Assembly: GCA_026415975.1 (NCBI GenBank)
Contig: JAOAFZ010000003.1
Location: forward strand, 62,001 to 126,000
Origin: Patescibacteria group bacterium
GTDB taxonomy: Bacteria; Patescibacteriota; Microgenomatia; UBA1406; GWC2-37-13
Length of the DNA: 64,000 bases
Direction: 5' to 3'
Translations under genes and position numbers: made by a program
Shown here: one piece after another, positions 5,958 through 10,268 of the stretch
How the letters are laid out: the number at the start of each line of letters is the position of its first letter
How positions within the stretch are numbered: the stretch's first letter is position 1
Notes under the pieces: model-generated
Told to the model about the DNA's origin: nothing
Seen by the model: the letters and a program-made list of their open reading frames with translations, nothing else
Database searches by the model: none

Positions 5958-6086
5958 TTACCGCTTTCGTGACAGGAGTAGCTTAAGAAAGGAGGCAAGA
6001 AGGTAAAATCCCACTAATACCAGACTCAGAAGGATTGCCATATAAACGATAATATACCGTATAGTATCACGAAGTGTCGGCGGCAT
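5958..6086 (-). CDS. Small single-pass membrane protein (42 aa)
   Basis: From ATG 6086 the product is 42 residues: a short polar start, a hydrophobic stretch (about 12-36) and a basic C-terminus LLLSRKR, typical of a single-pass inner-membrane micropeptide. The start is supported by a TATACT box 5 bases upstream, the same arrangement seen before many genes here. A longer reading from TTG 6155 exists but ignores this signal. It lies between convergent lemA and divergent SHMT. No function is assigned. Confidence 0.5.
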   Translation of the reverse strand: MPPTLRDTIRYIIVYMAILLSLVLVGFYLLASFLKLLLSRKR

Positions 6087-6091
6087 ACCAT

Positions 6092-6097
6092 AGTATA
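6092..6097 (-). promoter_or_regulatory. -10 box TATACT before the 42-aa membrane gene
   Basis: TATACT on the minus strand with a 5-base spacer to ATG 6086 predicts a leaderless transcript. Confidence 0.45.
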
Positions 6098-6159
6098 CTC
6101 TGTATCCCTTTTGTTGCACAGGTGCGATCTCGTCTTTTCGGGTGAAAGAGTACAATCAT

Positions 6160-6188
6160 TTGACAATTGCGGCATTTTTTTGTACAGT
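6160..6188 (+). promoter_or_regulatory. Sigma70-type promoter of the T-box operon
   Basis: A consensus TTGACA (6160-6165) is followed after 17 bases by TACAGT (6183-6188). Transcription would start near 6195, giving a leader of about 140 nucleotides. This differs from the leaderless promoters that dominate the window. Confidence 0.75.
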
Positions 6189-6196
6189 ACTATGTT

Positions 6197-6336
6197 GGAT
6201 GAGGCAATGACGGGATTGGCACCCCTGAGCCTTTCGATAAAAGAGGACAGATTTACTGGATATCATTATCTGTCAACCAGGGTGGAACCGCGGGCGCTTG
6301 CTCGTCCCTGACTGTTTATCAGTTCAGGAGACCACC
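6197..6336 (+). promoter_or_regulatory. Translational T-box riboswitch with ultrashort Stem I, probably Gly-specific
   Basis: Stem I: AGGC (6202-6205) pairs with GCCT (6229-6232). A K-turn follows, with 3-base bulge AAT and tandem G.A pairs from GA (6209-6210) and GA (6227-6228). The upper stem is GGG:CCC with terminal loop ATTGGCAC carrying GGC (6218-6220) followed by A. Stem III: GACAGAT (6246-6252) pairs with ATCTGTC (6268-6274). T-box: AACCAGGGTGGAACCGCG starts at 6275. Antisequestrator: CAGGG (6278-6282) pairs with CCCTG (6306-6310) around bulge TGGAACC. Alternative sequestrator: CCTGACTG (6307-6314) pairs with CAGTTCAGG (6320-6328), covering the Shine-Dalgarno AGGAG (6326-6330), 6 bases before ATG 6337. 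UGGA fits a U73 tRNA such as tRNA-Gly. Uncharged tRNA should stabilise the antisequestrator and allow translation. No terminator T-run exists, so control is translational. Pairings were drawn by eye. Confidence 0.9.
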
Positions 6337-7617
6337 ATGCAGTATTCTTCACCTAACAATAACAAATTTCCCCCTCTCTCTTCTGTGTATCGTTTGCTTG
6401 CCCGTGCAGAGGAACACGAATTGTACAGAAGCAATTGTCTAAATATGATAGCGTCTGAAAATCTTATTTCGCCGTTAGCACGGCGTATGCTATCAGCAGA
6501 TTTCGGAAACAGGTACTCCTACGGCGCACAAGGAGAAAAATTATTCCCCGGGACCGGAATAATGGATGAGATAGAAGGTATCGCGGCTGCACTTGCTGCT
6601 AACCTGTTTCACGCAGGGTATGTGAATGTGCAGCCAGTTTCCGGCATGGTCGCAAACATGGTTGTATATGAAGCGGTACTTAAGCCAGGGGCTACTGTTC
6701 TTGCTGCATCCACAAGACACGGGGGGCACTATAGCCATCACAGCGGTTTGCTGGATCGATGGAATGCCAGGGTGTCGTACCTTCCCTTTGATTCAAGAAA
6801 GTATCAGCTGGATATTCCAGCCTGTATCAAGGCGATCTTCCGGGAAAAACCCCAACTTGTGATTGTTGGAGGATCGGAGATGCTCTTTCCGGTCCCGCTT
6901 CAACCCTTGCGCCAGGCGTGTGACCGGATTGGTGCAGTTCTGCTTTATGATGCTGCCCATGTTGCCGGATTGATCGCCGGAGGAGAGTTTCAGCAGCCCC
7001 TTGCGGAGGGAGCACACATACTGACTTTGAGTACAAACAAGTCGATGGCTGGACCGGATCATGGACTGGTAGCAACCGCTGATCCGCATCGCTTTCGTCA
7101 TGCAATCGAACGCGCTGTCCAGAAGGTCTTTGTTTCGAACAATCATATGCATCATATTGCAGCTTTGGCTATAACTCTCGCGGAAAACAAGGTATTCGGC
7201 CGGCAATATGCTCATCAGGTGCTTAGAAACTCGCGTGCTCTGGGAGAGGCGCTTGATAAGAAGGGAATAACTGTAGTTGCTGCAGAAAACGGATGGAGCA
7301 AAAGCCACATGGTTCTTGTTGACACCGGAGAAGATGCAACCCCGAAGATGCGAGCTCTGGAACGGGCAAATATCATCACTAGCACCTGCTCACTTCCTAA
7401 GGATCGGAACGGAACGGAGTCGGGTCTTCGGCTGGGTACAGCTGAACTGACACGTATCGGGATGAGAGAGCAGGAAATGGAAATGGTTGCGGAATGTATT
7501 TCCTCCGTGCTTCACGACTCTCACGATACAGAGAGAACAAAGAAAAAAGTAACTTCATTCCGCTCGTCCTATCGCACAATTTCATTCTGCTTTTCAGGGA
7601 TAATAGACTATAATTAG
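6337..7617 (+). CDS. Serine hydroxymethyltransferase-like PLP enzyme (divergent)
   Basis: This 426-residue fold-type I PLP enzyme is clearly related to GlyA. Conserved features are NMIASENLISP (about 36-46), NVQPVSG and AN (PLP pocket), YDAAHVAGLIAGG (about 208-220, the Asp and His of SHMT), the presumed Schiff-base lysine in STNKSMAGP (about 234-242), and RLGTAELTRIGM (substrate-carboxylate Arg). Differences from typical SHMT: TTHKT..GPRGG becomes STNKS..GPDHG, the YYGG region becomes LFPG, and there is an extra basic C-terminal tail. SHMT interconverts serine and glycine using tetrahydrofolate; a divergent relative could instead be an aldolase or use another carbon donor. The ATG at 6337 is fixed by AGGAG at 6326-6330, controlled by the T-box. 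The next gene starts 20 bases downstream. Confidence 0.85.
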   Translation: MQYSSPNNNKFPPLSSVYRLLARAEEHELYRSNCLNMIASENLISPLARRMLSADFGNRYSYGAQGEKLFPGTGIMDEIEGIAAALAANLFHAGYVNVQPVSGMVANMVVYEAVLKPGATVLAASTRHGGHYSHHSGLLDRWNARVSYLPFDSRKYQLDIPACIKAIFREKPQLVIVGGSEMLFPVPLQPLRQACDRIGAVLLYDAAHVAGLIAGGEFQQPLAEGAHILTLSTNKSMAGPDHGLVATADPHRFRHAIERAVQKVFVSNNHMHHIAALAITLAENKVFGRQYAHQVLRNSRALGEALDKKGITVVAAENGWSKSHMVLVDTGEDATPKMRALERANIITSTCSLPKDRNGTESGLRLGTAELTRIGMREQEMEMVAECISSVLHDSHDTERTKKKVTSFRSSYRTISFCFSGIIDYN

Positions 7618-7637: not shown

Positions 7638-10268
7638 ATGTGCGGTATCGGCGGGTTATGCGGGTTTCGGGATGATCGAATCATCAAAAAAATGTCGCAG
7701 CTCATGCGGCATCGCGGACCTGATGGCGAGGGTATATTTTCAAACGATAAGGTATCTCTCTTAAACCGCCGGCTGGCAATTATCGATCGTGCAGGAGGTG
7801 ATCAGCCGATCTGGAACGAAGACAAGACTGTAGTCGTCGTATTCAACGGTGAAATATATAATTACCGAGAGCTGAGGGTCGAGCTTGAGTCACGCGGACA
7901 TTATTTTTCTACGCACTCCGACACTGAGGTAATTGTACACAGCTATGAAGAGTGGGGCGACACCTGCTTTGACCGCTTTAACGGGATGTTTGGAATCGCA
8001 CTCTATGACATCAAACGCGAACGGCTTCTGCTGGCGCGAGATCACTTTGGCATTAAGCCTGTCTATTACGCATATGACCGTGAAAATAATAACCGGATCC
8101 TTTTTGCATCGGAAATTAGGCCCATTCTGGAAAGCGGGCTTGTAGATAAAAAGCCGAATGAACGAATTCTCTATCGCTACCTTGTTTATCGGATTCACGA
8201 TGAAAATGAAGAGACGTTCTTTGCAGGTGTGCGACGACTGCTACCGGGGCAGATGATGCTTATCGAGAATGGAAAAGTAAACATTCGATACTATACTCAA
8301 TTCCAGAGAAAACTGAAAGAAATTACTCCGAAAAAAACCCTTTCACCACACGACGTTACAGAGTTTCGGGAAAAAGTTATCACGGCTATTCACCGGCGGC
8401 TGGTTTCAGAGGTCCCGGTCGGGAGCGCACTCTCGGGTGGGCTGGATTCTTCAACGGTAGTTTCCGTAATAAACATGCTATTACGAAAACGCAATAAAGA
8501 TCTCCAAGCTATAGGAAAAACACAAAAAACATATTCTGCCGTTTTCCCTGGTTCAAGTAATAACGAGGAGCAATACATTGATAGTCTTGTTACTAGTCTG
8601 GAACATGTTGATTCTATCAAGGTAAAACCCACCCCTGAGGAGTTTTTCTCTGATTTGGAGGACTTTGTTCGATCTCAGGAGGAGCCTACAATTAGCACCG
8701 GGCCGTATGCGCAGTATCAGGTAATGCGTCGGGCCAGCAAGGACGTAACGGTCCTCCTGGACGGCCAGGGGATTGATGAGATGATGGCAGGGTATCTGCC
8801 GTATTACCTGGTATATATGCGGGACCTTCTCAATTCACGCTCATATCAAAAACTGATGATGGAGTTATGGGCTTCACGAGACATAATCACCGGACTTCTT
8901 TTGAGAAAACTAAGCGCAGTTATCGGCTTACGAAAGGATATTTCAGTAAAAAATCTGTTACACAGCCGGTTTGCAGATCAATATAAAAATGAGTCGTTTT
9001 GTGCCTGTGCAACAAATCTCCGGCAGAGGCTCATAGAAGACGTGTTCGGAAACAGTTTGCAAGCCCTGCTCAGATATGAGGATAAAAACTCTATGAGGTT
9101 TTCGGTAGAGGGTCGCGTTCCCTTTCTCGACCGAGAGTTGACTGAATACATTTTTTCACTTCCCGACGAAGCAATTATTCATAAGGGCTGGAATAAGGCG
9201 ATTCTCCGTGATGCCATGCAAGGACTGATTCCCGATACAATAGTACGTCGTCGCAATAAAATCGGCTTTACCACACCCGAAAGGGAATGGTTCCTCCGGA
9301 TGAAAAACAGGATCTATGGTATTTTTCTGAGTGAGTCATTTGCCAGCAGACCCTATTTTAATCAGGCAGCGGTCTTGAAAGCCTTCGAGGCATTTATCGA
9401 GGGCAAAAACGACGATACCATGCTCTTCTGGCGCCTTTTGAACGTGGAGCTTTGGATGCGGATTTATTTTGATGAAAAACCGTTGCAGAAAGAAGCCAAA
9501 CCGCGTAAATTGTTCGAACCGAATGAGGGAAAGCAGCTGGAAATAGAGGTAGAAGGTAAGCGTTATGCCCGGTACCCGGTGCGGACTGAGCTATTTGCCA
9601 AGGGAGATGACTATGCCGCAAAGCTGGCTGCAGAAGTGGATTCCTTCCGCAAAAAACTCCTCACTGCCCCGGCAGGGAAGAAACTCCGAAATCGAGACTG
9701 GGTTGCGATTATCTCCGAGAAGGTCGTCGCGATTTCACAGGGACGATCGTACTTTATCTGGGACATACATCCGAGCTGGTGGGCAAAAACCCTTTCTTCC
9801 TTTGTTAAAAAGACCCCCTACGGGATTGGTCTGGGCAGCCCATGGACGATGCAGCTTGCTATCAATGAAGTGGGCTTAAGCCGAATCCTGTTTGCCTCGT
9901 TTGCAGCAGCGGTTACCAAGCCGCTTGGAATAAAAGGACTCTTTTACCATATAGTAGGCAGAACAGTAGCCAGTATAGATGGCCCCACCGAGTATTCGCT
10001 GTATCCCTCGAACGTTTCCGCAAAGCTCGGTCCTCGCGAGCCGGACAAGGCTGCCGAGGCTATCTCGACCGCGATCCGGAAAAAGCTTACCAGTGATGAA
10101 CGGAAGCACTTCATGGGTGCGGTGGTAATTGACGCGAACGATCTGGGGAGGGATATCTTGGGAAATGCCTCGGTACTCACAGATTCGGAAGTGGCAGCTA
10201 TCATGCGTGATAATCCGATGGGGCAGGGGAGCGAGCAGACCCCGCTGGTGCTAGCGTATTTAATCTGA
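7638..10268 (+). CDS. Asparagine-synthetase-like amidotransferase fused to a CofE/F420-ligase-like domain
   Basis: The product has 876 residues; the start at 7638 places Cys2 (MCGIGG) as the class II glutamine amidotransferase nucleophile. Residues 2-200 form the glutaminase domain (RHRGPDGEG, FNGEIYNYRELR). Residues about 240-612 form the AsnB synthetase domain with PP-loop SALSGGLDSSTV (about 260-271). Typical AsnB ends near 615. A further 260 residues resemble F420-0:gamma-glutamyl ligase (CofE): DWVAIISEKVVAISQGR, a NVSAKLGPREPDKAAEAI segment, and AVVIDANDLGRDILGNAS (matching the D.GR..r.G motif). CofE enzymes form amide bonds to glutamate using GTP. No other F420 gene is visible. The gene lies 20 bases after the SHMT-like gene, with no promoter between. 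The fused product may make two amide bonds on one unknown substrate; this is inference. Confidence 0.82.
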   Translation: MCGIGGLCGFRDDRIIKKMSQLMRHRGPDGEGIFSNDKVSLLNRRLAIIDRAGGDQPIWNEDKTVVVVFNGEIYNYRELRVELESRGHYFSTHSDTEVIVHSYEEWGDTCFDRFNGMFGIALYDIKRERLLLARDHFGIKPVYYAYDRENNNRILFASEIRPILESGLVDKKPNERILYRYLVYRIHDENEETFFAGVRRLLPGQMMLIENGKVNIRYYTQFQRKLKEITPKKTLSPHDVTEFREKVITAIHRRLVSEVPVGSALSGGLDSSTVVSVINMLLRKRNKDLQAIGKTQKTYSAVFPGSSNNEEQYIDSLVTSLEHVDSIKVKPTPEEFFSDLEDFVRSQEEPTISTGPYAQYQVMRRASKDVTVLLDGQGIDEMMAGYLPYYLVYMRDLLNSRSYQKLMMELWASRDIITGLLLRKLSAVIGLRKDISVKNLLHSRFADQYKNESFCACATNLRQRLIEDVFGNSLQALLRYEDKNSMRFSVEGRVPFLDRELTEYIFSLPDEAIIHKGWNKAILRDAMQGLIPDTIVRRRNKIGFTTPEREWFLRMKNRIYGIFLSESFASRPYFNQAAVLKAFEAFIEGKNDDTMLFWRLLNVELWMRIYFDEKPLQKEAKPRKLFEPNEGKQLEIEVEGKRYARYPVRTELFAKGDDYAAKLAAEVDSFRKKLLTAPAGKKLRNRDWVAIISEKVVAISQGRSYFIWDIHPSWWAKTLSSFVKKTPYGIGLGSPWTMQLAINEVGLSRILFASFAAAVTKPLGIKGLFYHIVGRTVASIDGPTEYSLYPSNVSAKLGPREPDKAAEAISTAIRKKLTSDERKHFMGAVVIDANDLGRDILGNASVLTDSEVAAIMRDNPMGQGSEQTPLVLAYLI

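Follow-up and report, generated by a model that had tools for sequence, protein, structure and literature searches.

In published surveys T-boxes are recorded from Firmicutes, Actinobacteria, Chloroflexi, Deinococcus-Thermus and some delta-proteobacteria, with CPR not among the groups named (PMC2494555, PMC3766115), and four classes have been described (PMC10482949). Class I carries a long Stem I with the IDTM and a Stem II; Class II comprises glycine T-boxes with a long Stem I and the IDTM and no Stem II; Class III has a short Stem I without the IDTM, an apical specifier in a loop of 5-6 nt and a required Stem II; and Class IV has an intermediate Stem I. T-boxes with a short Stem I need Stem II for tRNA binding (PMC7583486, PMC10482949), a point that counts against tRNA sensing by the leader described here. 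The GGC-GCC pairing of glycine T-boxes is considered strong enough to spare them Stem II, with the IDTM still helping (PMC7583486).

The leader studied here lies in the window, the stretch of 64,000 nucleotides from a Patescibacteria group bacterium that was analysed, and all of its features are on the forward strand. With Class II, of the B. subtilis glyQS type, it has in common the GGC specifier, the UGGA bulge, a linker in the place of Stem II, and Stem III followed by an antiterminator-type discriminator. Class II, however, is characterised by a long Stem I, an elbow-binding IDTM, an internal-loop specifier and transcription control, whereas the window leader has a Stem I of 31 nt, an apical-loop specifier and a predicted translational output. 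With Class III, of the Nocardia/Mycobacterium ileS type, it shares the ultrashort K-turn Stem I, the apical-loop specifier, the lack of an IDTM and, by prediction, the translational output. Class III T-boxes sense Ile and cannot bind without Stem II and its pseudoknot, whereas the window leader has no Stem II and its inferred ligand is tRNA-Gly. In terms of the class definitions, Class II is met in glycine specificity and in the linker that replaces Stem II (6233-6245) and not met in the long Stem I with IDTM, for which there is no room at 6202-6232; Class III is met in the short K-turn Stem I, the absent IDTM and the apical specifier and not met in the Stem II with S-turn and IIA/B pseudoknot, since only 13 nt separate Stems I and III. 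The combination of a Class III-like Stem I with the Class II-like absence of Stem II places the leader outside all four published classes. A preliminary description of the locus, made from the sequence alone, had recognised the ultrashort K-turn Stem I, which held; its comparison with actinobacterial ileS leaders was incomplete, as these need the Stem II that the window leader lacks. The glycine riboswitch (RF00504), which can also control glyA-type genes (PMC12452182), is an unrelated RNA, and no RF00504 match was found at the window leader. It is found upstream of glyA and gcv genes and senses free glycine, not tRNA.

All the elements that had been named at 6197-6336 in the preliminary description were present. 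The promoter it had reported also held but lies just outside that span: a sigma-70-like TTGACA-17-TACAGT at 6160-6188, with 10 of 12 matches, from which transcription is inferred to start at about 6195-6197, some 5 nt 5′ of Stem I. Stem I (6202-6232) was identified from its sequence, from the covariance models R1 and R2 described below and from its covarying helices 1 and 2. Its C-stem pairs AGGC (6202-6205) with GCCU (6229-6232) and is followed by the K-turn, which consists of an AAU bulge (6206-6208) and the tandem G.A pairs G6209.A6228 and A6210.G6227, and then by a C.U. The upper helix, GGG (6212-6214) with CCC (6223-6225), closes the apical specifier loop AUUGGCAC of 8 nt, or 6 nt if A6215.C6222 stack, in which the glycine codon GGC (6218-6220) precedes a conserved A6221. 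In the place of Stem II there is a single-stranded linker (6233-6245), of 13 nt in the window and a median of about 16 nt across 28 leaders, whose 3′ end carries the RRRxG motif (PMC7583486) as AAGAG (6241-6245). Stem III, supported by sequence and covariation, pairs GACAGAU (6246-6252) with AUCUGUC (6268-6274) and is followed by AA (6275-6276). The antisequestrator (6279-6309), supported by the Rfam alignment and by covarying helices 4 and 5, contains helix A1 (AGGG/CCCU, 6279-6282/6306-6309), the bulge UGGAACC (6283-6289, within the T-box 6279-6292) and helix A2 (6290-6295/6300-6305). It overlaps a sequestrator hairpin, CCUGACUG (6307-6314) with CAGUUCAGG (6320-6328): the CCU of its 5′ arm is also part of A1, and its 3′ arm holds the AGG of the Shine-Dalgarno sequence AGGAG (6326-6330), 6 nt 5′ of the ATG at 6337. 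A CCACC (6332-6336) adjoins the ATG and is predicted to pair with GGUGG of the T-box (6281-6285) in the OFF fold. This pairing was not seen in other translational relatives, and the attractive idea that CCACC mimics the CCA end of the tRNA and competes for the T-box was set aside as unconserved and possibly incidental.

The Rfam model RF00230 matched the window leader with E values of 2.3e-7 (801 bases) and 8.9e-8 (genome-wide), at a score of 40.3 bits that does not meet the curated gathering score of 93 bits. The score is low because a long Stem I is built into the model and is forced onto the promoter, and the resulting placement of Stem I at 6151-6196 was treated as an alignment artefact. 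Leader and model thus agree in Stem III and in the T-box/antiterminator alignment, and differ in that the Stem I of the model misfits the window leader. A covariance model (R1) seeded by two leaders of other genomes (L102 and L029), with the window excluded, gave the window leader a score of 71.9 bits (E 8e-12); across the class it also detected related leaders, in 23 of the 373 genomes. Run against the phylum, a second model (R2), made from all 28 leaders, hit 82 of 380 genomes, with non-glycine T-boxes among its weaker matches.

Three checks on homologous leaders had been proposed beforehand, namely compensatory changes, conservation of GGC and the occurrence of the leader before homologous genes, and all of them were run with favourable outcome. 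When the 28 leaders were aligned to R1, 20 of the 24 pairs showed changes on both sides. Standard pairs filled 94.5% of cells, a level reached in 0 of 500 shuffles, compared to 66% after shuffling and at most 48% when the columns were slid. The covariation score of 0.65 dropped to 0.17 on shuffling and did not exceed 0.10 when the columns were displaced by one to three positions. Stem III was the clearest helix, with 7 of 7 pairs covarying and 98.2% of cells paired, and RNAalifold recovered the same helices from the same alignment. Since the alignment was fitted to the model, these statistics lean its way; the slid controls were nonetheless far lower. Initial MAFFT alignments, which misplaced Stem III and the 3′ strand of the K-turn, were replaced by the two-sequence seed model. 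The folding energy of the whole leader was unremarkable (z-score -0.21), and the case therefore stands on homology and covariation, not on stability. Judged by its parts, the leader has a UGGN bulge in the antisequestrator, a specifier matching a tRNA whose discriminator pairs with UGGN, and the RRRxG and AA motifs around Stem III (AAGAG-Stem III-AA, 6241-6276). These elements and the covariation show that 6202-6309 is a genuine T-box, while tRNA binding and charge sensing are inferred.

To identify the tRNA, the triplets available in AUUGGCAC (AUU, UUG, UGG, GGC and GCA) were considered together with the bulge. The UGGA bulge requires U73, which in this genome is carried only by tRNA-Gly (GCC, UCC and CCC), tRNA-Thr and tRNA-Cys, and the tRNAs of the other loop triplets do not fit, leaving GGC, which matches the tRNA-Gly anticodon GCC, as the only consistent triplet. 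GGC was present in 25 of the 28 homologous loops, the remainder being one GGA-like variant and two misaligned rows; the A after GGC was conserved while the base before it varied. UGGA occurred in all 28 leaders, a count partly favoured by the model. Elsewhere in the class the specifiers agreed with their genes (GAC with aspS, CCC or CCU with proS or proB, GUC with valS and CGC with argH, the gene names being read by eye from translations), and therefore the apical-loop reading works generally. These results support tRNA-Gly as the ligand, being the sole fitting candidate, in the absence of binding data.

No terminator-like site was found in 6050-6450. Folding with Stems I and III in place gave ensemble energies of -45.2 kcal/mol for the OFF fold and -39.7 kcal/mol for the ON fold in which A1/A2 were enforced and Stem I was fixed as in the tRNA-bound state. 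In the OFF fold the AGG of the Shine-Dalgarno sequence was buried in the sequestrator hairpin (probability of being unpaired 0.00), whereas in the ON fold AGGAG was unpaired with a mean of 0.76. A pairing between Stem I and the Shine-Dalgarno sequence, seen when only A1/A2 were enforced, was discarded as unrelated and was gone once Stem I was fixed. The OFF bias of 5.5 kcal/mol depends on an energy model that ignores the tRNA and the K-turn. An exclusive Shine-Dalgarno sequestrator and the lack of a terminator, the marks of a translational T-box, are thus met, on computational grounds only. The CCCU of A1 also serves as anti-Shine-Dalgarno sequence in three other leaders (L187, L189 and L197), as it does in the second copy of each of the tandems L186, L198 and L013. 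In the tandems L186 and L198 a terminator hairpin and T-run follow the first copy and a Shine-Dalgarno sequestrator the second, so tandem copies may possibly join transcriptional with translational control.

Taken together, we consider it very likely (probability about 0.87) that the leader is a translational, glycine-specific T-box of stripped-down architecture, with tRNA binding, charge sensing and the direction of regulation remaining inferred. In the proposed mechanism, the apical GGC of the K-turned Stem I would pair with the GCC anticodon of tRNA-Gly, and the U73-C-C-A end of the uncharged tRNA would pair with the UGGA bulge, aided by the purines flanking Stem III. The uncharged tRNA would hold A1/A2 closed and keep CCCU within A1, leaving AGGAG accessible to the ribosome, and the two pairings would pay the energy difference between OFF and ON. 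With charged tRNA, A1 would open, CCU would pair with the AGG of the Shine-Dalgarno sequence in the hairpin and translation would stop. As serine hydroxymethyltransferase (SHMT) makes glycine from serine, glycine starvation would raise the glycine supply. The preliminary description had inferred both translational control and tRNA-Gly sensing. The former is supported computationally by the missing terminator and by a Shine-Dalgarno sequence buried in OFF and exposed in ON, and the latter by three tRNA-Gly species with U73 and by the fit of GGC, with binding still an inference.

The gene under putative control (6337-7617, forward strand) encodes an archaeal-type SHMT, glyA-like, of 426 aa (PF00464, 3e-60), which matched the M. 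jannaschii-type SHMT structures 4uqv/4bhd (5e-84) more closely than E. coli GlyA 1eqb (1e-52). It adjoins, on its 3′ side, a gene for an asparagine-synthase-like protein with a C-terminal F420-0:gamma-glutamyl-ligase-like domain (7641-10268, forward strand), which to judge from the spacing is probably co-transcribed with it. An ordinary glyA is also present in the same genome and has no T-box motif in its 512 upstream bases. A homologue search with the window SHMT in the genome contigs gave nothing usable, and the T-box pattern was scanned instead. Just three of the 373 class genomes, each from a different family, carry the archaeal-type SHMT, and in all three a glycine leader lay directly upstream of it; therefore, gene and switch seem to move together. 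In one carrier (G278) two T-boxes in tandem precede SHMT, which is followed by a small gene and then glyS. Other glycine leaders were mostly found before glyS and also before purU (formyltetrahydrofolate deformylase). In E. coli, purU is tied to glycine and one-carbon balance.

Among the alternatives, a T-box acting by transcription attenuation would match most relatives of the class, and in most glycine leaders of the class a hairpin and T-run do follow CCCU. Against this, 6050-6450 lacks a terminator-like site, and the hairpin downstream of CCCU is followed by GACCACCATG and holds the Shine-Dalgarno sequence in its 3′ arm, which makes attenuation very improbable. Equally hard to sustain is decay, in which genome reduction would have shortened Stem I, removed Stem II and left a T-box unable to sense tRNA. 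The two missing tRNA-contacting modules and the small genome (1.31 Mb) speak for decay; against it, dozens of lineages retain the reduced form, each helix of Stems I and III showing compensatory changes, and the leader travels with its gene. A T-box for another amino acid, read through a shifted frame of AUUGGCAC (AUU Ile, UUG Leu, UGG Trp or GCA Ala), finds some support in the shifted specifier frames of certain T-boxes (PMC7778990). It is likewise most unlikely given the U73 that UGGA needs, found here only on Gly, Thr and Cys tRNAs, the retention of GGC and A while the preceding base varies, and the glycine genes that are the targets. Finally, a direct metabolite or Shine-Dalgarno hairpin element with chance likeness to a T-box has nothing in its favour beyond the low Rfam score and is practically ruled out by the RF00230 match, the R1 and R2 matches and the covariation.

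The probable translational glycine T-box of the window is not isolated. Of the 373 genomes sampled from the class (Microgenomatia), 191 had RF00230 matches and only 18 passed the gathering score, and the pattern of the sister leaders matched in Roizmanbacteria, Gottesmanbacteria, Daviesbacteria, Woesebacteria, Dojkabacteria and four Anaerolineae (Chloroflexota). The attribution to a CPR-type genome made in the preliminary description held, with relatives named Roizmanbacteria and Gottesmanbacteria, and is refined in that the leader is one of very many T-boxes in the class and phylum. No T-box linked to CPR, Patescibacteria or Parcubacteria was found in the literature searched, although several core papers lay outside it and earlier reports are not excluded. 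As T-boxes of Deinococcus and Chloroflexi are known, it is possible that the reduced form was already observed there and passed without remark. The more interesting result is the abundance of structurally reduced T-boxes in CPR. With T-boxes present in roughly half of the genomes sampled from one CPR class, the finding is relevant to the open question of T-box origin, and it hints at how amino-acid starvation may be controlled in organisms about whose regulation little is known. Stem III has been held indispensable, and it has been asked whether any T-box works without a K-turn (PMC7583486); these leaders, with lengths of 82-126 nt, are natural test cases for the need of Stem II, Stem III and the K-turn. 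A bolder reading, towards which the balance tips only slightly, is that CPR hold a large undescribed T-box repertoire, including a fifth class with a short apical-specifier Stem I and no Stem II, and that the archaeal-type glyA and its switch have spread together between lineages. On this reading, as some members seem to do without the K-turn or without Stem III, the minimal core may be only the specifier hairpin and the UGGN bulge with its flanking purines.

Several further leaders were recorded in the course of the survey. In four Anaerolineae loci (L206, L207, L211 and L213) an ultrashort, Stem II-less glycine T-box lies 5′ of glyS where the gene is visible. T-boxes without Stem III were seen in the glyS leaders L193 (1501-1582) and L194 (253-338), in L198 (789-891) and in L092, L098, L100, L104 and L110. 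Here a single pyrimidine takes the place of the stem, giving GAGAAG-Y-AA 5′ of the T-box. The corresponding pattern GAGAAGYAANNNNGGTGGNACC had 16 occurrences, spread over 14 of the 319 class genomes, with none in the reversed control rows listed. By eye, Stem I appeared to be a plain hairpin without K-turn in L197 (1501-1601), L199, L220, L229, L232 and L241, as in the UUGUGUUCACCAAACACAA of L232, 5′ of a thrS-like gene.

Tandem glycine T-boxes were found as L130/L186 (G278), L013/L027 (G049), L198 (G144), L191 (G168) and L005/L029 (G001 and G174), the last with a long canonical copy followed by an ultrashort one. At L005/L132, L180 and L215 a glycine tandem pair lies 5′ of a predicted lipoprotein-like gene of unknown function; its sequence is identical in Roizmanbacteria- and Gottesmanbacteria-named records and may be mobile or reflect binning overlap. 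In many transcriptional CPR T-boxes (for example L089, L096 and L190) the T-run of the terminator abuts the start codon (TTTTTTTATG); the 3′ arm of these terminators carries an AGGA/GAGG-like stretch, and the hairpin might conceivably also hide the Shine-Dalgarno sequence. The genome of the window has two T-boxes by RF00230 in its 1.31 Mb, the window leader and one other (G000:C2:278256-278540; L002, L133). The latter lies 5′ of a trpE-like gene followed by trpG, trpD, trpC and trpB-like genes; its UGGC bulge fits G73 of tRNA-Trp, and it is of the transcriptional type, with a T-run before the start.
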